A DNA stretch of 53,703 bases. Origin: a virus. Below the pieces are notes generated by a model. It worked only from the letters and a program-made list of their open reading frames with translations. It had not been told where the DNA came from and did no database searches. Made by a program: the position numbers and the translations under genes. The stretch spans positions 1 through 53,703 of IMG/VR virus record IMGVR_UViG_3300036719_001675; one strand, given 5' to 3'. This document shows, piece after piece, positions 8,788 to 35,996 of the stretch (the first letter of the stretch is position 1; every line of letters starts with the position of its first letter).

Positions 8788-9342
8788 ATGAATAAGCCAA
8801 CCGAAAAAAAGATCAACCCAAAACAGAAAGAGAGTAAGCCCATGACACCCGAAGAAATTGAAGCCCGTGAAGACGCTGAATATGAAGCACTCACTGAAGA
8901 ACAGCGTGTGCTTTATTGCGATGCAAATGAAGAAGGTAAGGATCACGAAGAATGTATGTTTTATGCACTCAACACGCCAATTGACTTTGAAGTAGTTGAC
9001 AGTGATGAACTTACAAAACTTGCCGAAGAAGCACTCGTTGCCGAAGGCTTGGTCAAATTGGCTAAGGCAGTTATTGCTAAAGAACCAGTTGCTCCTAAAG
9101 TCGCTGTTCCTAAGACTGCAAAACTTTTGCCAAGTGAACATGAACAAGGTGCTCTTGTTGTAGTTGACATGACTGATCCGAATACGATCAACGAAGATAT
9201 CGCAGAACTCAATGAAAGCGAAGATGTCAAGAAGGTGGCAGAAAAAGTTTCACGGGTTCGCAAAACTCTTCCGAAGACCAGTGGCAATGCACCTAAGCAG
9301 GTTGCCAAAGTATCAACGGCACGACGAAAGCCAACACGATAG
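8788..9342 (+). CDS. Charged hypothetical protein following the ATPase-VWA pair
   Basis: A 184-residue protein, acidic in its first half (many Glu/Asp) and Lys/Arg-rich at the C-terminus (STARRKPTR); not recognised. The start at 8788 has AAAAGGAAACAGAAA upstream. A second in-frame ATG at 8842 is preceded by a degenerate copy of the leader (CAACCCAAAACAGAAAGAG), repeating the dual-start pattern of the two preceding genes. The AKAVIAKEPVAPKVAVPK segment is a low-complexity Ala/Lys/Pro linker. It probably belongs to the same transcript as the ATPase-VWA genes. Confidence 0.65.
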   Translation: MNKPTEKKINPKQKESKPMTPEEIEAREDAEYEALTEEQRVLYCDANEEGKDHEECMFYALNTPIDFEVVDSDELTKLAEEALVAEGLVKLAKAVIAKEPVAPKVAVPKTAKLLPSEHEQGALVVVDMTDPNTINEDIAELNESEDVKKVAEKVSRVRKTLPKTSGNAPKQVAKVSTARRKPTR

Positions 9343-17580: not shown

Positions 17581-17612
17581 AACTAAATCACCACTATCCC
17601 TTGGGAGGAACA

Positions 17613-18080
17613 ATGGGAAGCGAAGTAGATTATTCAATAGAAGAAATTGACGAAGGGAAATGGAGAGAAAGCGCTAACTGCAAAGATAGAAGCGTTGATC
17701 TTTTTTTCACAGATGGGGCAGGCGATAGCAGTAGGTATTTGTCTGCAAAAACACTCTGCTTCAATTGCCCCGTTCAAAAGCAATGCTTAGATTATGCCGT
17801 TACAAACAGTATCGTCTATGGCTTGTGGGGAGGTATGCCTTATCGTGAACGATTGCAATACCGTGCTGGTAAGCGATCACATAAGTTAGAACTGAAAGAT
17901 GTTCTAAGAGGCTATAGTAACGCCAACGATAAGACGCTTACTAAGTTGTCAGAAACGCTAGGGATCAGCAAAGACAACATTAAGTACGCTCTTGGCATTG
18001 ATAAGAAATCAATGGCTAGGCGTGTACGACGACAAAGAGATCAACTACGATTGAAAGCAGGGAATTCAAATGACCAGTAA
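17613..18080 (+). CDS. WhiB-like iron-sulfur transcription factor
   Basis: Actinobacteria-specific regulator holding a 4Fe-4S cluster. The four cysteines are in SANCKD, LCFNC and KQC, followed by the G-x-W-G-G turn (YGLWGGM) and the RERL segment. The C-terminal extension (about 90-155) reads as an added helix-turn-helix (TKLSETLGISKDNIKYALG), unusual for a WhiB. Start ATG 17613 has GGGAGGA upstream; the TTG at 17601 would place that site inside the gene. It overlaps recA by 11 bases. Phage WhiB proteins can redirect the host sigma factor. Strong host indicator. Confidence 0.9.
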   Translation: MGSEVDYSIEEIDEGKWRESANCKDRSVDLFFTDGAGDSSRYLSAKTLCFNCPVQKQCLDYAVTNSIVYGLWGGMPYRERLQYRAGKRSHKLELKDVLRGYSNANDKTLTKLSETLGISKDNIKYALGIDKKSMARRVRRQRDQLRLKAGNSNDQ

Positions 18081-21099: not shown

Positions 21100-21592
21100 A
21101 TTCGTAGTCATTGGCATAGACCCAGCCTCTACCAAGTTGGCAATGGTTGCGTTATCTTCCGATGGAAGATATATGACCTATTACAACGGCAAATTAGGAA
21201 AGAGTGGTGGGCAATCGTGCGCCAACGCTATACGAAGTGTCAACTCGTTTGTTTCAAGCGTTCAAAAGAAACTGGGCAAAGTTCAGTATGCTTTCATAGA
21301 ATCGCCAGTAGTCGGAAGAGGCGGTGTACGGTCAACGATGGTTCAGTGTTTCACATCGGGCGCTATTCAAGGTGCGCTTTATGAATCAGGGATCACCACA
21401 CAAGTCGCCAATGTCTCGTCGTGGAAAAAAACAGTCGTCGGAAAAGGAAACGCAACCAAAGAAGAGGTCGCAGAATTTATACGATTACGATGGCATGATA
21501 TCTTCGCCACAGCAAGTGGAAATCAAGACCTCATTGACGCTTCCTGCATTGCCCTCTATGGACAACTCTCTGTCGGTAGGGGAATGGTTTAA
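21092..21592 (+). CDS. RuvC-like Holliday junction resolvase
   Basis: A 166-residue RNase H-fold endonuclease starting at GTG 21092. Acidic residues are at the expected places: IGIDPAST (first Asp), YAFIESPV (Glu) and NQDLIDASCIA (Asp near the C-terminus). RuvC-type enzymes cut four-way junctions; in phages they clear branches before packaging. The gene overlaps the upstream frame by eight bases and the following WhiB gene by 35. Confidence 0.83.
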   Translation: MDRFVVIGIDPASTKLAMVALSSDGRYMTYYNGKLGKSGGQSCANAIRSVNSFVSSVQKKLGKVQYAFIESPVVGRGGVRSTMVQCFTSGAIQGALYESGITTQVANVSSWKKTVVGKGNATKEEVAEFIRLRWHDIFATASGNQDLIDASCIALYGQLSVGRGMV

Positions 21593-21866
21593 CTTAGCGT
21601 CATGCAAAGGTCAGACAGTTAAGTTTTTTAGGCATACTTGTTCACTCAGATGCAACACACACCCACAAGGTTGTGATAGAGTCGCTACAGTTAGACACTG
21701 TAGAAATACCTGTCTGACTTGCCCCGTTCTAGAACATTGCAGAATATGGGCGATCAGCACAAATTTAATTTATGGGTTCGCAGGCGGTATGTCTGAGAGC
21801 GAAAGAGAAACATTCAAGACTATGTTGGAGGAAGAAAATGGAAGAATTCCTGTTCAGTCAGACTGA
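21558..21866 (+). CDS. Second WhiB-like protein
   Basis: About 102 residues from ATG 21558. Motifs: WFNLASCKG, CLTCPVLEHC and the turn GFAGGMSESERE, with four WhiB-type cysteines. Extra cysteines (HTCSLRCNTHPQGC) sit in the insertion before the CxxC pair and could alter the cluster. It overlaps the RuvC frame at its start and the ParB gene at its end, so translation is coupled. It differs clearly from the WhiB at 17613 (no C-terminal HTH), so the two likely have separate roles. Confidence 0.8.
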   Translation: MDNSLSVGEWFNLASCKGQTVKFFRHTCSLRCNTHPQGCDRVATVRHCRNTCLTCPVLEHCRIWAISTNLIYGFAGGMSESERETFKTMLEEENGRIPVQSD

Positions 21867-24359: not shown

Positions 24360-25790
24360 GTGGCAAGCGATGACAAGGGCAAAGCAAAAGGCGTATTCAC
24401 AGAGGCTGGTGTAACTGGTCTTAGGCGTAGTGGTGGATATGTTCACGAAGAATTCTTGCCTCAACTGGCAGGGTATCGTGCAATTCAGGTGTACCGTGAA
24501 ATGCAGGATAATGACCCTGTAATTGGTGCAATTTTATACGCAATTGACAAACTCGTTCGTCAAGTGGCATGGCGTGTTCAGCCAGCCTCAACAAAACTTG
24601 AAGATCAAAAAGACGCTAAGTTTCTTGAATCGTGTCTAGGTGACTTGAATGTTGCTTGGGAAGACACAATCAGTGAGATCATGTCCATGCTTGCCTATGG
24701 TTGGTCGTTTCACGAAATTGTCTATAAGAAGCGCAATGGTTATACGAGTGACACAACGAAGACTTCTAAGTACAACGATGGAATGATCGGTTGGCAGAAG
24801 TTCCCAATTCGCTCACAAGAAACCCGTGACCGCTGGGTGTTCGCAGACAATGGCGACATTCTTGGTATGTGGCAGTCAGCCTCTCCAACATACTTCCCAA
24901 CATATATTCCAATTGAAAAGGCTTTACTGTTCCGAACGACAGTTTCAAAGAATAACCCAGAGGGTCGTTCAGTATTGCGTAACGCCTATCGCCCTTGGTA
25001 TTTCAAGCGCCGAATTGAAGAAATTGAAGCAATCGGTGTAGAGCGTGACCTTGCTGGATTCCCGATTATGTATGTTGACCCAGACATCATGCGTGAAGAT
25101 GCCTCTGGTATGAAAAGCACTGTATTTCAGGACTATAAAGATGTAATCATTAACATTCGTCGGGATCAGCAAGAGGGAATGATTCTTCCTGCTATGTACG
25201 ACGAAAATAACAACCTCATGTACAGACTTGAATTGCTATCTGCTGGCGGTGGTCGTCAATTTGATACAGACCGAATCATTACTCGCTATGACCAACGAAT
25301 TGCTACGACAGTGTTGGCAGACTTCATTCTGTTAGGTCAAGACATTGGCGGTTCATATGCACTGTCATCAGATAAGACGAGCCTGTTCGCTTTGTCTATC
25401 CGAACTTGGCTTGAAACGATTAAGACCGTTATGAATCAGCAGGCTATCCCACGCTTGTTTAGAGTCAATGGTATTGATACAGAAAAGTTGCCTGAACTTG
25501 TATATGGCGACATTGAAACGCCACCTCTTACCGAAATTGGCACATTCATTCAACAATTGGCAGGTGCTGGCGCACCATTGTTCCCTGATGACGCTCTTGA
25601 AAACCACCTTCGCAAAATGGCACACTTGCCCGAACGCCGTGAAGAATCAGCAGGCGTTGTTCAAGACGCTCAAGAAAAACTTTCTGGTCAAGATCAAGTT
25701 GACGCTTCCAAAGAAGCCAAGAATAATAAGAACGCAAAGAAACAAGAGACAGATCAAGAAGTCGCCCAAAGCATGACCACTAAGGAATAG
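24360..25790 (+). CDS. Portal protein
   Basis: A 476-residue portal starting at GTG 24360 after CTGGAGTAATACT. Typical signatures are VYREMQDNDPVIGAILYAID (N-terminal helical start), QVAWRVQPAS, LAYGWSFHEIVYKKR and LADFILLGQ. It is of the DUF935/Mu gp29-like type. Twelve copies form the ring at one capsid vertex for DNA packaging and tail attachment. The C-terminal Gln/Lys-rich tail is flexible. Followed directly by MuF. Confidence 0.88.
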   Translation: MASDDKGKAKGVFTEAGVTGLRRSGGYVHEEFLPQLAGYRAIQVYREMQDNDPVIGAILYAIDKLVRQVAWRVQPASTKLEDQKDAKFLESCLGDLNVAWEDTISEIMSMLAYGWSFHEIVYKKRNGYTSDTTKTSKYNDGMIGWQKFPIRSQETRDRWVFADNGDILGMWQSASPTYFPTYIPIEKALLFRTTVSKNNPEGRSVLRNAYRPWYFKRRIEEIEAIGVERDLAGFPIMYVDPDIMREDASGMKSTVFQDYKDVIINIRRDQQEGMILPAMYDENNNLMYRLELLSAGGGRQFDTDRIITRYDQRIATTVLADFILLGQDIGGSYALSSDKTSLFALSIRTWLETIKTVMNQQAIPRLFRVNGIDTEKLPELVYGDIETPPLTEIGTFIQQLAGAGAPLFPDDALENHLRKMAHLPERREESAGVVQDAQEKLSGQDQVDASKEAKNNKNAKKQETDQEVAQSMTTKE

Positions 25791-25792
25791 TC

Positions 25793-27244
25793 ATGCCTGC
25801 TACCTCAAACTTTCGTGGCAAGAAACTTCTTCAAGCCATTACTAATCTGATGGATAGCCTTGAAAGCAGATACCGTTCTGTTTTCTTGGAGACTATTGAG
25901 AACATTACAAATAGCCCTGATATAGCCGAAATTATTAGGGATATTCGCTTAGGAAATATCACCACAATTGACAACGCTACCCTCGCAAGAATTCAGGGCG
26001 TTCAACTGAACACATATGACCTAACGGTTGCCTCAAGGCAGGCTATGGCTTCAGGTGGCAAGATAACGGCTAAGACGGTAGGGCTTGAAGGTAAGTTCAA
26101 CCTACAGAACCCAAGAGCAATTGCTGCAGCCAGAACTCTTAGTGATGAACTCGTTGCCAATTTAAGTAAAACTGTTACAAAGAATCTGACCGACATTATT
26201 ACTGACGGTGTGTCAGGAACTGATTCTCTTTCGGAAACTATTCGCCGTATTAAAGATGAAATTGGATTAACGACACAACATTCAGCGGCAGTAAAAAATT
26301 ATCGCAAGAACCTCATTCAAACTGGAATGGATAAGGCGAAAGCATTAGCCCAATCAGAAAAATATGCGAAGAGATTGCTTAAATATCGTGCCGAAACAAT
26401 TGCACGAAGTGAAATAGCAATGGCGGTTAATAAAGGTCAGGCAGAGTTCTGGAAACAGATGAAAGATGACGGTTCTATCCCACCTACTGCAATGAGAATT
26501 TGGATTGCAGAAATGGATAGTAAAACTTGCGACATATGTGCGCCTTTGAATGGAGAACTAGCACCAATTGATGGTGCTTGGTCTACTGGTCTAGGGTTCT
26601 TTGACATACCGTATGCTCACCCTCGCTGTCGTTGTACTTCAGGGCTTGTATTCCCCAACAAAATCACCAAAAACGACCCAATTGGTTATGAGCAATGGGT
26701 TATTTCAAAAGGCGATTATGTAGGTCACCCATTCAGAGGTAATCAATGGACTAAAGTTGGTGGTGCAGGTGCTGGCGCTAAGAATGAAGCAAATGCCTCT
26801 CAAATTGATTGGAATGTTCTTTACGACAACGATGTTCCTGGGGAATTAGAGTCATATCTCGGAGATAATGCCGTAAAGTCCCTTGAAAATTGGATATTTA
26901 ACGCTAAATACCCAACTCAATGGCTTAAAGAAGTAGCAGGAAAAGACTATGAATATGAAGAGCATTATCAGACTCTTCAAGGTTGGTTAAAAGAAGCCAA
27001 TTTCCCCGATACGGTAACTGTTATTAGGCAGGGTACGCCAGACCCTAGGGGAGACATACGAAGTGGTTCTGCTATGGAAGGCTGGACAGGTGGCGCTATT
27101 GACGCTCAACATCATTATGGTTCTGACCGAAAAGTTTATGTAAGCAAAGTGCCAAGAAAAAATATCATTGGTATTGGTCAGATAGAAGAAGGAGAACTCT
27201 TCTATAAAACCGAAGGCGTAACAGTGACGGAACTGAAAAGGTAG
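25793..27244 (+). CDS. MuF head morphogenesis protein fused to tag and ADP-ribosyltransferase-like domain
   Basis: A 483-residue fusion. The MuF core (about 200-295) has TIARSEIAMAVNKGQ, DSKTCDICAPLNG and YAHPRCRCTSG, as in SPP1 gp7/Mu gp30. Residues 306-320 contain the tag GDYVGHPFRGNQW. The C-terminal about 150 residues read as an ADP-ribosyltransferase-like fold: VTVIRQG (Arg), MEGWTGGAIDA (Ser/Trp-Thr position), VYVSKVPRKNIIGIG and EEGELFYKTEG (E-x-E). MuF proteins enter the capsid and may be injected, so a C-terminal ART could act on the host. The ART assignment is by motif layout and is moderate. Confidence 0.78.
   Translation: MPATSNFRGKKLLQAITNLMDSLESRYRSVFLETIENITNSPDIAEIIRDIRLGNITTIDNATLARIQGVQLNTYDLTVASRQAMASGGKITAKTVGLEGKFNLQNPRAIAAARTLSDELVANLSKTVTKNLTDIITDGVSGTDSLSETIRRIKDEIGLTTQHSAAVKNYRKNLIQTGMDKAKALAQSEKYAKRLLKYRAETIARSEIAMAVNKGQAEFWKQMKDDGSIPPTAMRIWIAEMDSKTCDICAPLNGELAPIDGAWSTGLGFFDIPYAHPRCRCTSGLVFPNKITKNDPIGYEQWVISKGDYVGHPFRGNQWTKVGGAGAGAKNEANASQIDWNVLYDNDVPGELESYLGDNAVKSLENWIFNAKYPTQWLKEVAGKDYEYEEHYQTLQGWLKEANFPDTVTVIRQGTPDPRGDIRSGSAMEGWTGGAIDAQHHYGSDRKVYVSKVPRKNIIGIGQIEEGELFYKTEGVTVTELKR
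26708..26752 (+). repeat. GHPFRGNQ tag, copy 1 (MuF)
   Basis: Encodes KGDYVGHPFRGNQWT between the MuF core and the ART-like domain. Codons are GGT CAC CCA TTC AGA, then GGT AAT CAA TGG, different synonyms from the other copies. Confidence 0.85.
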
Positions 27245-27256
27245 TAGGGTAGGGGT

Positions 27257-27538
27257 ATGAGCAAACCAGACTATTCATTCGTTGATGTGACCGACATTGT
27301 TCCGCCTGCCGCATCGGACTTATGGTCAACAATGGTCCCTCATCATGGGATTGTCATTATTTCAGGCTTACGACCCGAAGGGGGAGAGGCTATCCATGTC
27401 ATTCATAACACTGACGCTCCAGCGTGGACTCTGATAGGAATGTTAGAAGCAGTTAAATCTGACCTTTTATATATGTTTCAGCAGGTTGAATACAGGAGAA
27501 ACGAAGATGGCAACGAAGAAGAATACTACGAAGATTGA
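27257..27538 (+). CDS. Small hypothetical head-region protein
   Basis: A 93-residue acidic protein after GTAGGGGTATGAG-type spacing. Not recognised. VPHHGIVIISGLRPEGGEAIHV suggests a compact beta sheet, and the C-terminus is highly acidic (NEDGNEEEYYED). Its end overlaps the next gene in another frame (27507). It sits between MuF and the protease, so an assembly or cargo-immunity role is possible. Confidence 0.55.
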   Translation: MSKPDYSFVDVTDIVPPAASDLWSTMVPHHGIVIISGLRPEGGEAIHVIHNTDAPAWTLIGMLEAVKSDLLYMFQQVEYRRNEDGNEEEYYED

Positions 27539-27788
27539 TAACAAAATTGTCTTAGTCGTTTGGCATGATGCTCATGCAGATTCTTCAGGAACATGGGTTG
27601 AAAAAGAAAATATCGGCAATAACCCATACATTGTAGAGACTTGTGGGTTCTTGATTGAAGATGTAAAACCTAACCATGTAACCATTGCACAGACGATCTC
27701 ACATGACGGAATGTATGACCACATTATTCACATTCCCGACGCTATGGTCGTATCAAAGAAAACGATCAGCACTAAAGGCGATCATTGA
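27507..27788 (+). CDS. Small hypothetical head-region protein
   Basis: A 93-residue protein from ATG 27507 (site CAGGAGAAACG; the longer frame begins at TTG 27486). Sequence KIVLVVWHDAHADSSGTWVE and VETCGFLIEDVKPNHVTIAQ forms an alpha-beta pattern seen in small phage proteins of about this size near head genes. It overlaps the preceding gene by 32 bases. Function unknown. Confidence 0.6.
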   Translation: MATKKNTTKIDNKIVLVVWHDAHADSSGTWVEKENIGNNPYIVETCGFLIEDVKPNHVTIAQTISHDGMYDHIIHIPDAMVVSKKTISTKGDH

Positions 27789-27846
27789 TTGCTCTAGCAA
27801 CGCCAATACATTTAATGTAATCTGAACCTAAGTAACAGGAGATGCA

Positions 27847-28371
27847 ATGGAAGCACAGATTACAAAAATAGATGATGATAAGCGCCTCGTATTTGGTTGG
27901 GCTTCAATTATCAAAGATGTAGAAGGAAAAGTCCTACTTGATCGCCAAAACGACTACATTGACTCTGAAGAAGAATTAGAAAAAGCCGCCTATTCGTATG
28001 TTCTAAATTCCCGTGATGGTGGAGAAATGCACATTCGTAAGGGTGTTTCAACAATGGTTGAATCGGTTGTTTTCAGCAAAGAAAAGCAAGAGGCAATGGG
28101 TATCCCTTCTGGCTCAATGCCCGTTGGTTGGTGGATTGGTTTCCGAGTCAATGATGAACGGGTATGGGAAGAAGTCAAAAAGGGTCAGTATTCAGGATTC
28201 TCTGTACACGGGACTGGTCAACGAAACCAAAACATTCTAAAAGACGGTGAATATACCGAAATTGAAAAGAATGATGAAGTGCAGGAAGAGAAATTTGACG
28301 GTGTTCGTGTTTCTAAAAAACTTTTGATGACATTGACCAAGGCACAAAAGAACAAGAGCAAAGACAAGTGA
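27847..28371 (+). CDS. Prohead serine protease, XkdF-like
   Basis: A 174-residue protein with AGGAGATGCA upstream. Matching segments are RLVFGWASIIKD, GGEMHIRKGVSTMVESVVFS, MPVGWWIGFRV and VKKGQYSGFSVHG, the XkdF-type capsid maturation protease domain with candidate catalytic His and Ser there. The EISLV...PAN end normally seen in XkdF proteins is not present; it is found instead at the N-terminus of the scaffold protein at 32406. It cleaves scaffold and perhaps tagged cargo. Confidence 0.75.
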   Translation: MEAQITKIDDDKRLVFGWASIIKDVEGKVLLDRQNDYIDSEEELEKAAYSYVLNSRDGGEMHIRKGVSTMVESVVFSKEKQEAMGIPSGSMPVGWWIGFRVNDERVWEEVKKGQYSGFSVHGTGQRNQNILKDGEYTEIEKNDEVQEEKFDGVRVSKKLLMTLTKAQKNKSKDK

Positions 28372-28376
28372 TCTAA

Positions 28377-31091
28377 GTGGGAATTTCAAAAGACAACCCG
28401 ACTTCTTCTGATGTTCATGTAGACGCAATTATGGGAGCAGTTAAGAATTCTGCCATGACAAGTAAAAAGCGACGCTTGAAGAAAAAGCGTATGGCTATGG
28501 ATATGTCTCTTAAGAAGGGTGACTTTGTAGGACACCCATTCCGAGGTAACCAGTGGACTAGGGGAATGGGCGTAAGTCGTATGGCAGGGCGATCAGCACC
28601 AAAAGACCCAACCGCAGGTGCTCAAGGTGGTGGAAGTGGCGTAGTTAACCCAACAGTTAAAATTACCAATGATAGACCTCTTGGTTTTCGTGAAGCAGGA
28701 TTGCCAGCACACGGAAGAAAAACAGGAACGGCTGTTGACGATCTCTTAACTATGGGCGCTAAAGATAGTACACAAGCGTCAGAAGGTCGTTCTTTATACA
28801 GAGACACTCAAAGTATGCTTGACACTGTTCACCGAAATTTAACGCAAGTACAAAGTAATGTTCTTTCTCTTAAGCGTAGACCAGACCAACCAGATAGCGA
28901 ACTCTTAGGAATTCGTAACAGAAGTCTATTGGCTGAAGTAAATTCAATTCAGGCTAAGTTACGGGCGCAAGAAGCAGAGTCTTTGGCTACAGCAGCGCGT
29001 GGTTCAAGAAAAATTCAAGCACAAGACTATGGCGCAAGTTCAGAACTTCAAGCACAACAAGCAGGAGCAGTTAATAGTGCTGCAAAAAAGGCACTATATC
29101 TTGGCGATGTAAACAAGCGGTTAGACTCATTCTTAAAAGAATTTAAAGGTAGCCCTGACGCTTTATTTTCTAAAGAATCAGCAGAAGTAACTACTAAGAG
29201 AACAAAAGGGGCTTCCCCCACTAATGAAGTAACACGCAAGTTACCTTCTGCTACTGTTACTCACCCAGACCTTGAAAATCCTTCTTCGCCAATGTGGAAG
29301 CAAAAAGTTCTAGGAGAAATGAAGTCTGTTTCTGCTACTGTTCAATCAGGTGGCGAAACTTATAGGGTTGACGGTATTCACCCAATCATTGCAGGAGTAT
29401 CACCAAAAGTTAAGTTTACCCCTGCGCTTATTAAAGAATTACAAGGTTTGTCTTTTGCTCAACAATCAATGATTACATCTGGTCATACAAGCACTGCCTC
29501 AATGATGGCAGAAATTAAAGCAATTAAAGCGAAAAAAGTTAAAGCAGGTTCTAATGCAGACAATGGAGAAGGTTTCAGCCTGACTACTGACCTTATGCTT
29601 AAACATAAAACAAAAGCACGAAAAGACGAAGAGTGGGATTCTTTAACTGAACCAGAAAAAAGAAGGTATGTAGACGCACCTGAGCATATGTCTCACGATG
29701 TTGCTATGCAATTAGCAATAGGTGTAAGGGGCGCTTTTGACCAACATTGGACACCGTTATCTGCTGGAGAAGTTGTCGTTAGTAGAACTGTTAGTAAGCC
29801 ATATGAAGCAAGTGCTCAAGAACTGCTTGGTAAGGGCGACTTCATTGGTCACCCATTTCGTGGTAACCAATGGGTTAGAGGTCGTGGTGGAATGGGTATT
29901 GGGGGAATGGTTGGTCGTGCCGCACCTAAAGACCCAACGAGTGGTTTTCAAGGTGGTGGCAGTGGAAAAGTAGCAAAGCCAAAGAAAACAAAAGAGGAAA
30001 AAGATGCGGAATGGGAATCACTAAACAATAAAGGTAAGATCATATATAGCGAGGCTCCTCAAGATTACAGCCACGATCAAGCGATGATGTTGGCTCGTAT
30101 GCCTCGCCGTGTTGTTAATAGGGGTCTTAGTGAAGCACAAACAAGGGAATACTGTAGCCTTTCACCAAGAGAAGGTGCTCACTATGAATACGCCAGTGCA
30201 AGCCGTTCTCATGCCAGCATTATGGCGGATATTAAAGCAGGGAAACCAGTTCGTGAACCTGCCGCTGGAATGAAGAGAGCAACCCCAGCAGACATTGCCC
30301 GTATCAGAAAAGAAGGTGTAGTTGTTGCTCCTGCATGGTCTGAAGTTCATGTGGCTAAGTCAAAATCTAGCAGGCTACAAGTGACAGGAATTGATGAGAA
30401 GGGGCGTGTTCAATCTGGCTATTCCAAAGCACACAAAGAACAGACTTCTAAAGCAAAGTTTGCTCAAGTAGCAGATGTTGAAAAAACACTGACTAAGTTA
30501 GATTCAGCACTAAAGCGTGATGTAGCGGCTGGAAAAGACGAGGCAGTTGCTTGTTTATTGATTCGCAAGATGGGCTTGAGACCAGGAGGTACTGGCGATA
30601 CTGGTGGTGCAGAAACAGCGTTTGGTGCTACTACTCTTCAACGCCGTCATGTTACCGTTCGTGGCAATACGACTACATTTGAATTCACAGGTAAAAAAGG
30701 CGTGAAGATTAAACTCGTTTCTAGAGACCCTGAAATTGCTAAGGCAATGACTGCACAGTTGGCAAAAGGTAAGCGTGGCGGTGACTCCCCACTATTTGAA
30801 TCTTCGGCAACTAAAGTGAATCAGTATTTGAAGCAGAACACTAGCCAAGACTTTAGCCTCAAAGACTTACGAACTGCATTGGCAACACGACAGGCTTTTG
30901 CATTGCTAAGATCAGCACCAGCACCGACTACGATGAAAGAAGCAAGAGCATTGCGTATGTCTATCGGTAAAGAAGTGGCACAGTTACTAGGAAATACGCC
31001 GAACATGGCACTTACCTCTTACATCAACCCCACGATCTTTGCTGGATTAGTCAAGCAATTCGGACCGCTTACAGGAAAGGCTAAATCGTGA
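28377..31091 (+). CDS. Virion-type protein with two GHPFRGNQ tags and a type IB topoisomerase domain
   Basis: A 904-residue protein starting at GTG 28377 (no strong site). N-terminus NPTSSDVHVDAIM resembles the start of the major capsid protein. Tags are at about 47-61 and 486-500, each followed by GR(S/A)APKDPT(A/S)G and a GGGSG stretch. Two D/EW..L...AP..SHD units follow (about 420-450, 535-565). Residues about 640-904 are topoisomerase IB: IRKEGVVVAPAW, LQVTGIDEKGRVQSGY, MGLRPGG (Arg), TGKKGVK (Lys), LKDLRTALATR (Arg), GNTPN and SYINP (nucleophilic Tyr). The enzyme would relax DNA by a 3'-phosphotyrosine link. Confidence 0.85.
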   Translation: MGISKDNPTSSDVHVDAIMGAVKNSAMTSKKRRLKKKRMAMDMSLKKGDFVGHPFRGNQWTRGMGVSRMAGRSAPKDPTAGAQGGGSGVVNPTVKITNDRPLGFREAGLPAHGRKTGTAVDDLLTMGAKDSTQASEGRSLYRDTQSMLDTVHRNLTQVQSNVLSLKRRPDQPDSELLGIRNRSLLAEVNSIQAKLRAQEAESLATAARGSRKIQAQDYGASSELQAQQAGAVNSAAKKALYLGDVNKRLDSFLKEFKGSPDALFSKESAEVTTKRTKGASPTNEVTRKLPSATVTHPDLENPSSPMWKQKVLGEMKSVSATVQSGGETYRVDGIHPIIAGVSPKVKFTPALIKELQGLSFAQQSMITSGHTSTASMMAEIKAIKAKKVKAGSNADNGEGFSLTTDLMLKHKTKARKDEEWDSLTEPEKRRYVDAPEHMSHDVAMQLAIGVRGAFDQHWTPLSAGEVVVSRTVSKPYEASAQELLGKGDFIGHPFRGNQWVRGRGGMGIGGMVGRAAPKDPTSGFQGGGSGKVAKPKKTKEEKDAEWESLNNKGKIIYSEAPQDYSHDQAMMLARMPRRVVNRGLSEAQTREYCSLSPREGAHYEYASASRSHASIMADIKAGKPVREPAAGMKRATPADIARIRKEGVVVAPAWSEVHVAKSKSSRLQVTGIDEKGRVQSGYSKAHKEQTSKAKFAQVADVEKTLTKLDSALKRDVAAGKDEAVACLLIRKMGLRPGGTGDTGGAETAFGATTLQRRHVTVRGNTTTFEFTGKKGVKIKLVSRDPEIAKAMTAQLAKGKRGGDSPLFESSATKVNQYLKQNTSQDFSLKDLRTALATRQAFALLRSAPAPTTMKEARALRMSIGKEVAQLLGNTPNMALTSYINPTIFAGLVKQFGPLTGKAKS
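28515..28559 (+). repeat. GHPFRGNQ tag, copy 2
   Basis: Encodes KGDFVGHPFRGNQWT with codons GGA CAC CCA TTC CGA then GGT AAC CAG TGG. Near the N-terminus of the topoisomerase protein. Confidence 0.85.
29832..29876 (+). repeat. GHPFRGNQ tag, copy 3
   Basis: Encodes KGDFIGHPFRGNQWV with codons GGT CAC CCA TTT CGT then GGT AAC CAA TGG. In the middle of the topoisomerase protein, separating its two halves. Confidence 0.85.
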
Positions 31092-32332
31092 TTGAATTTA
31101 CTCCACGCACAGAAGAAGAAGAAGCACAACTTACCGCAGACATGAAGGCTTTCTTTGAGACTATTCAGGATAGTGACATTGAAGTTGATGAATGGTTAGG
31201 CGATGAATACAGTGAAGAAGACGATGGAGAGAATGGCGAAGAACTAGGCGACATTGGCGAAATGGTTGGTATCACCAAAGCCCAACCATTGAAAGACCCT
31301 AAAGGTGGTCTCACTGCCGCTGGTCGTGCTAAGTACAATCGTGAAACTGGTTCTAACTTGAAGCCTGGAGTTACTGGTGCGGCAGATACGCCTGAAAAAA
31401 TGCGCCGTAAAGGTTCTTTCCTTACTCGCTTCTTCACAAACCCAAGCGGTCCAATGGTTAATGATAAAGGCGAACCAACACGCCTAGCATTATCAGCAAA
31501 CGCATGGGGAGAACCAGTTCCGAAGAATCGTAGCGATGCCGCCAAACTTGCCGCAAAGGGAAGAAGCCTCTTGGCTAGATACGAAAATGTAAAAAAAGGC
31601 GATTATGTAGGACACCCTTTTAGGGGAAATCAGCACACTCGTGTTGCTATTGCCGCAAGAACAAAAGAAATAATGGGGCTTTTAACTAAAAAAGCAGGGG
31701 AGCAAGTTGCAAATGGTCTAAAGCCTTTAGTGGAAGCAGCAGTAGAAGAATTTCAGATAAATGGTGCTTCAAATGAACCTCTTCTAGTCAATGGCAAAAA
31801 AGTTTCTATGGGCGGTCAAGTAGTTACTACCGCTGGTTTTTTAGACCTGCTTGTTAATGAGGTAGGAATGAAAGCAGTGTTTGGTCGTGATTTTTCAGCA
31901 GGTGATTTCAAAGAAGGCGAGAAGTTCCTTAAAAAAGGTGGCGGTCTTACCCAATGGTTTGACGAGAAGTGGGTTGACATTTCACGACCAAAAGAAGGCG
32001 GTGGCTACGAACCTTGTGGTCGCCCTGATGCTCATAAAGGTCATTATCCTAAATGTGTACCTGCCGCCCGTGCAGAAAGAATGACTCCTGAACAAATTAA
32101 GTCTGCCATTAGTCGTAAGCGTCGTGCAGAATCAAAAACGGTACGCCAAGACAAAAAGCCAATTATGGTTGAGACCATTAAAAAGGAAAATATTCCTGTA
32201 AATACTGAACTTTACAACAAAGTAAAGGCAGAGGCTAAAGCAAAATTTGATGTTTACCCATCTGCTTACGCCAATGGTTGGTTGGTTCAAGAGTACAAGC
32301 GTCGTGGTGGCAAATATAAAACTTCCGAATAA
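31088..32332 (+). CDS. Tagged head-region protein with DUF6321-like and DUF5872-like domains
   Basis: A 414-residue protein starting at GTG 31088 (overlaps previous stop, GTGA). Acidic N-terminus; then LKDPKGGLTAAGRAKYNR, GSFLTRFFTNPSG and LSANAWGEPVP (about 65-155), recalled as DUF6321. The tag KGDYVGHPFRGNQH is at 170-184. Then GGGLTQWFDEKWVDI and YEPCGRPDA, PKCVP (possible zinc site), RKRRAE, and the end FDVYPSAYANGWLVQEYKR, recalled as DUF5872. These domains occur in aquatic phages, function unknown. Virion cargo status is inferred from the tag. Confidence 0.72.
   Translation: MIEFTPRTEEEEAQLTADMKAFFETIQDSDIEVDEWLGDEYSEEDDGENGEELGDIGEMVGITKAQPLKDPKGGLTAAGRAKYNRETGSNLKPGVTGAADTPEKMRRKGSFLTRFFTNPSGPMVNDKGEPTRLALSANAWGEPVPKNRSDAAKLAAKGRSLLARYENVKKGDYVGHPFRGNQHTRVAIAARTKEIMGLLTKKAGEQVANGLKPLVEAAVEEFQINGASNEPLLVNGKKVSMGGQVVTTAGFLDLLVNEVGMKAVFGRDFSAGDFKEGEKFLKKGGGLTQWFDEKWVDISRPKEGGGYEPCGRPDAHKGHYPKCVPAARAERMTPEQIKSAISRKRRAESKTVRQDKKPIMVETIKKENIPVNTELYNKVKAEAKAKFDVYPSAYANGWLVQEYKRRGGKYKTSE
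31595..31639 (+). repeat. GHPFRGNQ tag, copy 4
   Basis: Encodes KGDYVGHPFRGNQHT, the only copy with His in place of Trp. Codons GGA CAC CCT TTT AGG then GGA AAT CAG CAC. Confidence 0.82.
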
Positions 32333-32367
32333 TTTGGGAGAGTAATAAAAAAATATTTGTCAAATAC

Positions 32368-32396
32368 TTGTACTGACCTGTTCTAGTTGGTATCTT
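32368..32396 (+). promoter_or_regulatory. Possible promoter for scaffold and capsid genes
   Basis: TTGTAC (32368-32373), 17 bp, TATCTT (32391-32396). ATG 32406 follows nine bases later with no ribosome-binding site, so the transcript may be leaderless or nearly so. It gives the capsid genes their own start after the cargo genes. Confidence 0.35.
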
Positions 32397-32405
32397 TGCT
32401 CTGTA

Positions 32406-33293
32406 ATGAATCGGTTGACTGATATGGAATTTGACGAGATTAGTCTTGTTACTCGCCCTGCCAATCAATTGAGTAAAGTGGTACTTTTCAAAAGCGACGA
32501 ACAACAGGAGCAATCAGTGACTACTGAAGTTGACAAAGGTTACGGAAAAATGGGCATGAAGAAGAAAATGAAGCCCATGACCGACGAAGAAATTATGGCT
32601 ATGTCCGAAGAGGAAATTGCTGCTATGGAAGACGAAGAGCCTATGAAAAAGGGTTCGGGTATGAAGCGTCGTGGTCGCCCAGTTCGTAAAGACGACGACC
32701 TTGATGAAGAAACCTCAGAAGATGTTATTGATCTTCCGAACGAAGTTTTTGAATACATTTCAGCACTTGAATCTGCAAATGCAGAACTCCTTGACCAAGT
32801 TGAAAAACTGGCTAAAAGCGTTGAAGTTGTTGCCGAAGAAGAAGACATTATGAAGTCGGCAGACCCTCAGATCGTGGCACTCGTCAAGTCTTTTGAAGAA
32901 CGAGCAAAAGCCGCAGAAACCATTGCTAAGTCGGAACGAGATTTCCGTCTTGAGCGTGAATTTGTTAGCAAGGCTTCTACCCTTAACGCATTGCCAATTG
33001 AATCTGATTCATTCGGTAAGGTTCTCAAGGGTGTTGCCGAATCAGTTTCTAGTGAACAGTTCAAGGTGCTTTGGGAAGTTCTCAGTGCCGCTAACTCGGC
33101 GCTTGCCGAAAGCAACCTTTTCACTGAAGTGGGCAAGTCGGGTGACTTTGACAATGATGGAGCAACTAGCCCCATCAACAAAGCCGCAGAACGAATTCTT
33201 GCTACCACACCAAATCTGACTCGCGAGCAGGCAATTGCCAAGGCTTTAGAATCAGACCCCAACCTTTACACAGCCTACTTACGAGGTAACTAA
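32406..33293 (+). CDS. Scaffolding protein with XkdF C-terminal-like start
   Basis: A 295-residue protein. The first 30 residues (MEFDEISLVTRPANQLSKVV) are the EISLV-x-x-PAN segment that normally ends XkdF proteases. A Met/Lys/Glu-rich region follows, then long coiled-coil helices (about 110-195), as expected of a scaffold, and a short C-terminal helical domain (LTREQAIAKALESDPNLY) of the type that contacts capsid protein. It precedes the decoration and major capsid genes. Probably cleaved and expelled during maturation. Confidence 0.75.
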   Translation: MNRLTDMEFDEISLVTRPANQLSKVVLFKSDEQQEQSVTTEVDKGYGKMGMKKKMKPMTDEEIMAMSEEEIAAMEDEEPMKKGSGMKRRGRPVRKDDDLDEETSEDVIDLPNEVFEYISALESANAELLDQVEKLAKSVEVVAEEEDIMKSADPQIVALVKSFEERAKAAETIAKSERDFRLEREFVSKASTLNALPIESDSFGKVLKGVAESVSSEQFKVLWEVLSAANSALAESNLFTEVGKSGDFDNDGATSPINKAAERILATTPNLTREQAIAKALESDPNLYTAYLRGN

Positions 33294-33295
33294 TC

Positions 33296-33688
33296 ATGGC
33301 AATTCAAGCGTCACAACCACTTAAAATTTCACTTGTTGCTGGAGCAGACCTTTCTGCCAAGCAGTTTTACTTCGTGAAGTTGAACTCTTCAGGTCAGGCA
33401 GTCGTTTGTGCGGCTGTTACTGACATTCCTGTAGGAATTCTTCAGAACACGCCTGCCTCTGGTTCAGTTGCAGAAGTCACTGTTGTCGGTGTTAGTAAGG
33501 TTTCCTCAGATGCAGGATTGACCGCTGGCAACCAAATTGGTACGAGTGCAGATGGTCAAGCGGCTGCTTATACCGCTGGCACTGACACCACGAAGTACAT
33601 CGTTGGGCAAATGCTCACGACTACTGGAGCAGCCGCTGTAATCGGTACTGCTGTTATTAACTGCGTCGCTCCTAGCCGAGCCGCCTGA
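33296..33688 (+). CDS. Capsid decoration protein, DUF2190-like
   Basis: A 130-residue Ala/Thr/Val-rich beta protein: ISLVAGADLSAKQFYFVKL, VVCAAVTDIPVGILQNTP, QIGTSADGQAAAYT and KYIVGQMLTT. This is the DUF2190 (lambda gpD-like) decoration or stabilisation protein pattern. It starts two bases after the scaffold stop and lies before the major capsid gene, the typical order. Confidence 0.72.
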   Translation: MAIQASQPLKISLVAGADLSAKQFYFVKLNSSGQAVVCAAVTDIPVGILQNTPASGSVAEVTVVGVSKVSSDAGLTAGNQIGTSADGQAAAYTAGTDTTKYIVGQMLTTTGAAAVIGTAVINCVAPSRAA

Positions 33689-33702
33689 TTAGGAGTTAAA
33701 CC

Positions 33703-34662
33703 ATGCCTCAGCCCACATCAACACAGGTTCATGTTGACGCAATCTTGACTAACATCTCGGTTGCTTTCATTCAAGACCAAGGCAATTTCATCGCTAACCA
33801 AGTTTTCCCGACTGTGCCAGTTGAGAAGCAGAGCGACAAGTATTTCAAGTATGCAAAGGGTGACTGGTTCCGTGATGAAGCAGCGCTTCGTGCTCCTGCA
33901 ACCGAATCAGCAGGTTCTGGCTATGGCTTGACCACTGACACCTATAGCACTCTCGTCTATGCTTTCCACAAGGACATTGACGATCAGGTTCGTGCTAACA
34001 GTGACTCGCCGTTGAACCCTGATCGTGACGCTACGCAATTCGTTACCCAGCGTATGCTTCTTCGTCAGGAAATTGACTGGAGTGCCAAGTATTTCACCAC
34101 TGGCATTTGGGCAACCGACAAGGTAGGTTCAACTGACTTCACGCAGTGGAGCAACTACACTTCGTCTGACCCGATTGAAGACATTGAAGCAGGTAAGAGT
34201 ACAATGTTGACAAGCACTGGCTTCATGCCGAACACTCTTGTTCTTGGCTACGATGTGTTCCGTCAATTGCGCCACCACCCTGATGTAGTTGACCGTATCA
34301 AGTACACCTCGTCTGAAGTGCCTGCCGAAGGTATCCTAAGCCGTTTGTTCGGTGTTGATCGTGTTCTCGTTACCCGTGCAATCAAGAACAGTGGCGCTGA
34401 AGGTGCTTCGGATTCGTTTGCTCAGGTTCATGGCAAGAACGCCGCCTTGTACTATGTTGCACCATCACCTGGCTTGCTTACTCCTTCGGCTGGTTACCAG
34501 TTCGCATGGCGTGGCGTAAGCGATGGAATGGGTCAGAACATCGGAATTACTCGCTTCCGTCGCCCAGAACTTCGTGCAGACCGCATTGAGGCTCAAATGG
34601 CTTGGGATTACAAGGTCGTTTCGTCTGATCTTGGGTACTTCTTCAGCAGTTGCGTAGCCTGA
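33703..34662 (+). CDS. Major capsid protein
   Basis: A 319-residue protein with TTAGGAGTTAAACC upstream. N-terminus PQPTSTQVHVDAILTNIS, then NQVFPTVPVEKQSDKYFKYA, YAFHKDIDDQVRANSD, TLVLGYDVFRQLRHHPDVVD and a C-terminal region FRRPELRADRIEAQMAWDYK. Segments match major capsid proteins of the large family with an HK97-type fold (VPVEKQSDKYF...YAKGDWF). No N-terminal delta domain is present, in keeping with a separate scaffold protein. The first dozen residues resemble the start of the topoisomerase protein at 28377. Confidence 0.88.
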   Translation: MPQPTSTQVHVDAILTNISVAFIQDQGNFIANQVFPTVPVEKQSDKYFKYAKGDWFRDEAALRAPATESAGSGYGLTTDTYSTLVYAFHKDIDDQVRANSDSPLNPDRDATQFVTQRMLLRQEIDWSAKYFTTGIWATDKVGSTDFTQWSNYTSSDPIEDIEAGKSTMLTSTGFMPNTLVLGYDVFRQLRHHPDVVDRIKYTSSEVPAEGILSRLFGVDRVLVTRAIKNSGAEGASDSFAQVHGKNAALYYVAPSPGLLTPSAGYQFAWRGVSDGMGQNIGITRFRRPELRADRIEAQMAWDYKVVSSDLGYFFSSCVA

Positions 34663-34677
34663 CCTTAGGAGGTCGTA

Positions 34678-35097
34678 ATGAATCGTTTTACTAAAGGTCT
34701 AGGACTTTTCGGTGGGATTGTCTCATCTGGTCCTAGTCGTAACTTAGGTATTCATTCAGTGAAGCGTACTTCGGCAACTGTTGCTGATGGTGCTTCAATG
34801 GTTGCTACTGCTGCTCACATTGTCACGAACACAGTTGTCAGTGCTACGCCTACTACTGGTCGTAACTTGACAACTGCTACTGGTGCTCAAATCATTGCTT
34901 TGTTGCCTGACGCTAATGTTGGCGATTGTACGGAATTCACAGTCGTTAACCTTGCCGCCGCTACTCATGCAATTACTTTGATTGCTGGTGCTTCGGGAGT
35001 AACTATTGTCGGTTCGGCAGTTGTTTCTGCCGCTTCGTCTGGTACTTTCTTGGTTCGTTACGACTCAGCCACAGCGGTTACTTTCATTCGTAAGTAA
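34678..35097 (+). CDS. Head fibre or second decoration-like protein
   Basis: A 139-residue protein with a strong site (TTAGGAGGTCGTA). After a Gly/Ser/Arg N-terminus it is Ala/Thr/Val-rich beta sequence (TATGAQIIALLPDANVGDCT, HAITLIAGASGVTIVGSAVV) ending in SGTFLVRYDSATAVTFIRK. This is the beta-prism pattern seen in phage surface or fibre head domains. Located just after the major capsid gene, so a capsid-surface role is likely. Not a firm family match. Confidence 0.6.
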   Translation: MNRFTKGLGLFGGIVSSGPSRNLGIHSVKRTSATVADGASMVATAAHIVTNTVVSATPTTGRNLTTATGAQIIALLPDANVGDCTEFTVVNLAAATHAITLIAGASGVTIVGSAVVSAASSGTFLVRYDSATAVTFIRK

Positions 35098-35102
35098 TCA
35101 CC

Positions 35103-35996
35103 ATGAAAGACCTAGAAGGCTTACGCTTACAGGCGCTTTTATCAATTGCCAAAGGAGACTATGACGGTCACCCTTTTCGTGGCAATCAGTGGACTCGTAG
35201 GGCTAGTCGTGGTCGTGCTGCCCCCAAAGACCCTACTGCTGGCTCTCAAGGTGGCGGTTCTGGTAAAGCCAAACGGCAAGTAGATGAAATAAAAACCGAC
35301 ATTCAACGGTTTGGTGGTGGTGGAGGTATGGCTGCAACGATGTCTCGCCTTGATGCTCTTGATGCTCAGGCTAAAGCATTGTTATCAAAGCCTGCTGTCA
35401 AGATTGACAGTTCTCTTCCAAAAGAATCGCAAGAAGTATTAACAGCCCTAAATAATAGGTTTACTGAGAGAGTTAAGCGTTTTCACCCTAAAGATATACC
35501 TGATATTCAACAAAAAGTTCTTGAAGGTATAGAAGAGGGTAAAAAATGGGTTTCTACAGTTGGCGGTAACGAAGGTTATGTTAAAACTGGTAAAAAAAGA
35601 GCCGACACAGAAATGGATAGCGCTCTTAGCCATCAAGTTGATCGTTTTGCTAAATTCTTAGGAATTCGTGCTGGAATAGAAATTGCATCAGCAAAAAGTG
35701 GTAGCAAATCTTCAACTCGCAAACCTTCAACTCAAAACCCTACAACTCCTAAGCCTGGTTCAGCAGGGTCAACCAAAGAAATTCTAAGGCGAGAAGCCCG
35801 AAGAATATTAGCCGAAGCGCCAACTGCTCCTAAACCTGCTAAAGCGCCAACTGCACCTAAGCCAACTAAGAAGAAGACTAAAAAAGAAAAAGACGCTGAG
35901 TGGGAAGTTCTTACCGCTAAACAAAAGAAAATTTACGAAAAAGCGCCAGCAGATATGTCTCACGACGACGCTATGGCTCTTGCTTTGGGCTTGTAA
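35103..35996 (+). CDS. Tagged head-region protein with SHD unit
   Basis: A 297-residue protein beginning four bases after the preceding stop. The tag KGDYDGHPFRGNQWT is at residues 17-31, followed by GRAAPKDPTAGSQGGGSG as in the topoisomerase protein. The central part is helical and Lys-rich; the linker 200-260 is Pro/Thr/Lys repeats. The C-terminal unit DAEWEVLTAKQKKIYEKAP then DMSHDDAMALA matches two units in the 28377 protein. No enzyme domain is evident, so it may be the minimal tag carrier or an adaptor. Confidence 0.72.
   Translation: MKDLEGLRLQALLSIAKGDYDGHPFRGNQWTRRASRGRAAPKDPTAGSQGGGSGKAKRQVDEIKTDIQRFGGGGGMAATMSRLDALDAQAKALLSKPAVKIDSSLPKESQEVLTALNNRFTERVKRFHPKDIPDIQQKVLEGIEEGKKWVSTVGGNEGYVKTGKKRADTEMDSALSHQVDRFAKFLGIRAGIEIASAKSGSKSSTRKPSTQNPTTPKPGSAGSTKEILRREARRILAEAPTAPKPAKAPTAPKPTKKKTKKEKDAEWEVLTAKQKKIYEKAPADMSHDDAMALALGL
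35151..35195 (+). repeat. GHPFRGNQ tag, copy 5
   Basis: Encodes KGDYDGHPFRGNQWT with codons GGT CAC CCT TTT CGT then GGC AAT CAG TGG. Near the N-terminus of the protein, downstream of the capsid gene. Confidence 0.85.

Follow-up and report, generated by a model that had tools for sequence, protein, structure and literature searches.

The window considered here is the whole of a 53.7-kb virus record (positions 1 to 53,703 of IMGVR_UViG_3300036719_001675), in which a short peptide of the form KGD[FY]xGHPFRGNQ, hereafter the first tag, recurs in the head module: five copies are distributed over four open reading frames (ORFs) of the portal-to-capsid region, all on the plus strand and all in frame. 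The lysine of the KGD motif is encoded at 26708, 28515, 29832, 31595 and 35151, and the GHPFRGNQ core starts at 26723, 28530, 29847, 31610 and 35166; the positions given for the five copies in an initial annotation of this sequence are thus exact to the base. At the 11 residues shared by the copies, 65 of the 110 pairwise codon comparisons differ. Hence, the peptide is what is conserved, as the same annotation had held, and DNA copying is ruled out as the cause of the identity of the tags.

The copies show diverse domain contexts. Copy 1 (KGDYVGHPFRGNQ followed by WT; 26708..26746, +) marks the border between the MuF domain and a C-terminal domain without an assigned fold in a minor head protein of 483 residues (25793..27244, +), which is recovered by the Pfam MuF model (PF04233, E = 3.6e-10, 41 bits against a cut-off of 29.6) and also matches phrog_3517 and TIGR01641 (phageSPP1_gp7, 3.5e-12). 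Copies 2 and 3 share one ORF, encoding a topoisomerase IB (TopIB) cargo protein of 904 residues (28377..31091, +; PF01028, E = 3.2e-21, residues 685-877): the former (KGDFVGHPFRGNQ; 28515..28553, +) lies in its N-terminal part and the latter (KGDFIGHPFRGNQ; 29832..29870, +) in its middle, before the catalytic region. Copy 4 (KGDYVGHPFRGNQ followed by HT; 31595..31633, +) separates the DUF6321 (1.5e-30) and DUF5872 (1.9e-17) regions of a protein of 414 residues (31088..32332, +), and copy 5 (35151..35189, +) is found in a 297-residue protein without an assigned fold (35103..35996, +). The MuF, TopIB, DUF6321 and DUF5872 domains named in the initial annotation are thus borne out by Pfam, whereas the ART-like domain that it placed after the MuF tag is not: this C-terminal domain has no Pfam match and no PDB sequence match, and an AlphaFold model of the MuF protein computed without an alignment was unusable (pLDDT 33). 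Likewise, there are indeed four tagged ORFs, but their description as unrelated holds only in part, since the TopIB and 35103 ORFs share other repeated segments; and, of the genes that it placed in the head module, the 35103 gene lies just past the major capsid gene.

Among these repeats is APKDPTxGxQGGGSGK, which follows three of the five tags (about 28596-28640, 29922-29966 and 35220-35265) and in its APKDPTxGxQGGGSG form is limited to this phage and near-identical contigs. A further module, DAEWExLxxKxxYxxAPxDMSHDxAMxLA, occurs twice in the TopIB ORF (28377-31091), in the 35103-35996 ORF, and perhaps in 8788-9342. The start of the TopIB ORF, ahead of copy 2, contains a segment (NPTSSDVHVDAIMGAV; 28395..28442, +) that resembles the N-terminal arm of the capsid protein (QPTSTQVHVDAILTNIS; 33703-33750) and is the best match in the window to the capsid N-terminus. 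Elsewhere, only two other non-capsid ORFs, both S78_2 proteases (L104 and L137), are clearly related to it; with just three clear non-capsid cases, we rejected this look-alike as a general second signal.

In the head module, the portal protein (24360..25790, +; PF06074, 5.5e-31; phrog_113, 5e-90) forms the upstream border of the tag cluster, and is followed by the MuF gene (25793), an XkdF-like maturation protease (27847..28371, +; PF14550, 2.5e-22), the TopIB gene (28377), the DUF6321/DUF5872 gene (31088), a scaffold-like protein (32406..33293, +; phrog_13547, 5e-19, with weak phrog_617 and phrog_80 head matches), the small head protein phrog_673 (33296..33688, +) and the major capsid protein (33703..34662, +; phrog_1005, 4.6e-97). 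The protease, scaffold-like protein, phrog_673 and capsid protein are all untagged in the window; the protease is tagged in several relatives (e.g. the tagged protease ORFs L005 and L227).

Beyond the window, the tag is a widespread element of 13-16 residues, its consensus, [VLI]xKGDxPGH[PE]F[RH]GNQ[YW]TxGxGGG, being present in at least 246 nonredundant ORFs from many viral contigs, with zero occurrences in shuffled sequences and zero with the reversed pattern. As the contigs are fragments fetched by the motif itself, these and the following counts speak to non-randomness, not to frequency in nature. A relaxed motif yields 659 matches in the 2.63 million residues of the fetched ORFs and none after shuffling; at the DNA level, a degenerate pattern matches every one of 50 chosen contigs, as many as 25 times in a single contig, and its reverse matches 0/50. 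Exact scans of IMG/VR recovered GHEFRGNQ in 41 stretches, and GHPFRGNQ is also widely matched. The logo derived from 352 distinct instances, [VLI]-x-K-G-D-x-[PE]-G-H-[PE]-F-[RH]-G-N-Q-[YWH]-T-x-G-x-G-G-G, has its information limited to about -9..+15, with almost none in the outer columns, and when unrelated ORFs are aligned, essentially only the tag columns are conserved. In principle, such an element might be a modular linker that lacks a binding partner and has been spread by recombination with shuffled cassettes: it borders modules, a Gly-rich stretch follows it, and the cassettes clearly shuffle. We consider this very improbable, as the near-invariant residues go far beyond the needs of a linker and identity across 495 homologous pairs is 0.78 in the tag versus 0.37 elsewhere. 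Moreover, the codons differ in half of the within-locus comparisons, which indicates that selection on the peptide, not DNA homology, keeps the tag.

Following the MuF junction into relatives led to a second tag, KHxxHDQ[KS][TS]HG[NSR]WA: the junction homologous to that of copy 1 bears HDQKTHG there, and orthologs at the junction of copy 4 have HDQKTHG or HDERGRFTS instead. The KHxxHDQ[KS]THG form is found in 401 copies and in none after shuffling. Its repertoire is the same as that of the first tag, comprising, among 60 nonredundant proteins, 14 ADP-ribosyltransferases along with DUF3626, MuF, Zeta toxin, portal and TopIB proteins. The second tag replaces the first at the same junction in orthologs of the MuF, DUF6321 and DUF5872 proteins and, if the rarer third form (HDERGRFTS, seen at such a junction in L032) is included, replacement is observed in 15 ORFs and 26 homologous-junction alignments, against 4.5 expected. 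In MAFFT alignments GDYVGHPFR and HDQKTHGxR fall in the same columns; therefore the two tags may be divergent forms of one element, although this is suggestive only. A Gly-rich [HR]DExG[RK][FW][TAS]xGG motif, repeated in head-module proteins of L057, L061, L066 and further loci, could represent a third form of the tag, and RVPAGNPTGGQWTSS, near the N-terminus of the product of L218:1258-2211 (G018), is another possible tag.

A phage tends to keep to one type of tag. Of the loci with at least three tags, 79 have the first type only, 54 have the second type only and five are mixed; even at the level of fine variants, agreement between nonhomologous ORFs is 0.485 within a phage versus 0.419 between phages, beyond the permutation maximum of 0.450. 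Tag type also follows the phylogeny of the head genes, with five changes on the capsid tree versus 14.8 in shuffles and three on the portal tree versus 29.8. The trees of the capsid, scaffold-like, protease, phrog_673, portal and MuF proteins each require 3-6 changes (shuffled means were 11-30 for the four trees so tested), and none of them is singled out as that of a single partner. The window itself is of the first type among close relatives of the second type, implying that the tag can be exchanged in several cargo proteins of one phage lineage. These patterns bear on the idea that the tag acts after ejection, being recognized by a host factor or the tail channel so that the cargo can pass through, refold or be released in the new cell. 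The very different hosts (Xanthomonas, Betaproteobacteria and Verrucomicrobia) and the different portals and capsids involved make it conceivable that the partner is a common one outside the phage; nevertheless, the within-phage coherence and the match to head-gene phylogeny point to a phage-encoded partner, and portals and proteases, which are not known to be injected, are also tagged. We accordingly hold a post-ejection role to be improbable.

The strings of either tag were not found in the open-access literature, with most subscription journals lying outside that search, and the tag appears to be undescribed. Searches of cultured phages with tblastn, for which tags of 21-24 residues are too insensitive as queries, gave one match for the first tag and none for the second, and plasmids gave a single unconvincing match (E = 7) with an equally insensitive 22-residue query. 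In Xanthomonas phage Rb1, the tag occurs in a DarA_N protein annotated as 'internal head protein', beside Dar-like genes; a putative prophage of Ideonella livida is also tagged. Among 84,980 species genomes of bacteria and archaea, the listed in-frame tags of the phage type are mostly in portal, portal-PBECR, DarA and PBECR1 proteins of apparent prophages; on these sequence searches, the tag looks phage-restricted. Verrucomicrobial prophages show the order portal, tag, PBECR nuclease, as is seen in four loci from Akkermansia and other Verrucomicrobia (L195, L197, L188 and L182), where PBECR is detected in three of the four and weakly in L195. As regards the host of the window phage, ORFs 17601-18080 and 21324-21866 display WhiB-like cysteine patterns by eye, which suggests an actinobacterium.

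The location of the tag in genomes and proteins is strongly patterned. Among nine contigs with both a portal and a phrog_1005 capsid, 68 of 85 tags lie between these two genes against 32.5 expected by length, and they are on the same strand as the portal. Within 217 complete ORFs, the first tag starts no more than 60 residues from the N-terminus in 111, and a median of 207 residues extends beyond the last one, the usual order of modules being a short leader, the tag, a Gly-rich linker and the cargo fold. When 196 nonredundant tagged ORFs were scanned against Pfam and PHROG, most had no family match. The remainder fall into head components (MuF, Portal_Mu, Phage_portal, the S78_2/S78 proteases and DarA with its DarA_N/C domains) and known or predicted injected effectors: ART-PolyVal, ADPrib_exo_Tox, Scabin-like, PBECR1/3, TopIB, Zeta toxin, HipA-like (HipA_2) and PI3/4-kinase-like kinases, ParB_N, SprT, M48, InPase and PFIN. 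Several unrelated domains may be combined in one tagged polypeptide, e.g. InPase with DarA_N or portal with PBECR, as also in multi-tag ORFs. The tag is thus not mainly a feature of non-virion proteins, a distribution that the initial annotation had named as contrary to its proposal.

One family of small proteins headed by the tag includes GNAT-fold enzymes, for which AlphaFold gave a model with a mean pLDDT of 82. Foldseek retrieved GNATs as its best PDB matches, including the AtaT toxin, and its weaker-scoring viral matches include internal virion protein A. In this one modeled cargo, residues 1-25, i.e. the leader and most of the tag, fall below pLDDT 50 and are predicted to be disordered, while the blocks from residue 31 are mostly above 83. 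Small tagged genes also form second clusters well away from the head module (L243:10011-19334, corresponding to 90-99 kb of G036, and L235:2082-13576 in G027), with a shared leader of the form M-S/T-NPFSxExL...; some have GNAT folds, and others are His-rich and probably helical. We regard these genes as candidate anti-defence cargo.

The main rival interpretation takes the tag for a site of the prohead maturation protease, which would free effectors from portal, MuF and other modules inside the head before ejection. The tags do mark domain borders, with as many as seven in one polypeptide, and are found in portal-tag-PBECR, MuF-tag-domain and protease-tag proteins; an XkdF-like protease is present in 26 of 40 tagged contigs, and head proteins of T4 and P1 undergo cleavage close to the N-terminus (PMC9024508, PMC12810830). 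Against this, the clusters of the classical substrates, namely the capsid and scaffold-like proteins, and also that of the phrog_113 portals, contain no tagged member (the scaffold-like cluster is untagged in six genomes). PF14550 is undetected in 14 of the 40 contigs, other protease families not all having been searched, and the same tag is found with different portal and capsid families; the proposal of a phrog_1005 capsid in all tagged phages was rejected (16/40). Furthermore, some phages have two different tag sequences at once, and in the half of the tagged ORFs with a tag near the N-terminus cleavage would free only a leader. A cleavage site is therefore unlikely, even if it deserves more weight than the other alternatives. 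From comparative sequence evidence, we favor an address signal over it because the capsid, scaffold-like and phrog_113 portal proteins are untagged and because the two tags share junctions and sometimes one phage.

Thus, the tag is probably an interchangeable address signal for virion cargo that acts in procapsid assembly. In this mechanism, a short peptide, predicted to be largely unstructured and situated ahead of a folded cargo module, usually with a leader before it and a Gly-rich linker after it, would be bound during head assembly by a procapsid component, with the scaffold/protease core or the inner shell as the likeliest candidates. The tagged proteins would then be enclosed in the head and would leave it later, along with the DNA, to function in the newly infected cell. 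Tags inside portal, MuF or protease proteins would be most simply explained if a cassette made up of tag and effector had been fused downstream of a head protein. Genomic association speaks strongly for a loading signal such as the initial annotation proposed: it covers the domains joined to the tag, the genes nearby, the shared strand, the frequent N-terminal position, the predicted disorder and the swapping of tags. From it we infer that a procapsid component binds the tag and that the cargo is packaged and injected; it does not fully separate the three options of that annotation, capsid targeting, scaffold binding and protease recognition.

Several observations weigh against an address signal. 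The remaining 17 of the 85 tags belong to clusters outside the portal-capsid interval, including the second clusters of G036 and G027. Targeting would not need several copies, up to seven, in one polypeptide, and the portal and MuF proteins that carry tags are bound for the head anyway. When all proteins of 24 contigs were clustered, no untagged family was present in all, the portal being the most widespread with 11, and no receptor was identified among the phage proteins. Lastly, the cultured Arthrobacter relatives Salgado, Ottawa and Kovu have the portal/MuF/capsid layout and no tag; the tag is not universal.

Precedents for such an address signal exist in well-studied phages. The capsid targeting sequence of the T4 internal proteins, as summarized in PMC9024508 citing Mullaney and Black, is short and N-terminal, and brings small injected proteins, as well as reporters of foreign origin, into the prohead; similarly, the tag is often N-terminal, ahead of the cargo domain (111/217 ORFs). 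The T4 signal serves one phage group, whereas the tag is common to unrelated phages and also occurs in mid-protein. In P1, 30 N-terminal residues of DarB are enough to bring a reporter inside the capsid (PMC9024508), and the Dar system resembles the tagged proteins in consisting of injected multidomain head-packaged proteins, with DarA_N and DarA_C domains common to both. Both tag patterns are without a match anywhere in the T4 genome; neither tag is present in the P1 Ulx, DarB, DdrB, DdrA, DarA, Hdf, portal and protease proteins, nor anywhere in the P1 genome. Hence, the tag would work like the signals of these phages without being the same signal.

The polyvalent proteins (Iyer et al. 2017, PMC5512222) and the MuF polymorphic toxins (PMC5576092) display the same domains in the same genomic setting: ART-PolyVal, PBECR, InPase, DarA, and MuF and portal fusions are common to these sets and to the tagged proteins. 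Term searches of both articles returned no shared packaging or targeting signal; the tag differs in being a common element for one subset of the polyvalent proteins. Encapsulins, as described in PMC8346489, present another parallel, in that specific enzymes have a dedicated route into a shell with the viral HK97 fold. Their shell differs in being a cellular nanocompartment and not a virion, and the likeness is drawn from descriptions. Encapsulin cargo-loading peptides are mostly terminal.

More broadly, we tentatively raise the possibility, at somewhat less than even odds, that tailed phages of many hosts share interchangeable and perhaps homologous cargo tags as a general 'address code' for the loading of effectors. 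Its members might be GDxxGHxF[RH]GNQ, KHxxHDQ[KS]THG and perhaps the HDExGRFTS-like forms, mostly with one dialect per phage that could be changed across the cargo. A common packaging signal was expected in P1 but not found (PMC9024508), and the tag bears on how injected polyvalent and anti-defence proteins enter phage heads. If the proposal is true, a searchable tag would allow the candidate virion effectors of uncultured phages to be listed straight from sequence, the small tagged ORFs without an assigned fold would be prime candidates for new anti-defence proteins, and fusion to so short a peptide would be a means of bringing proteins of choice into phage particles.

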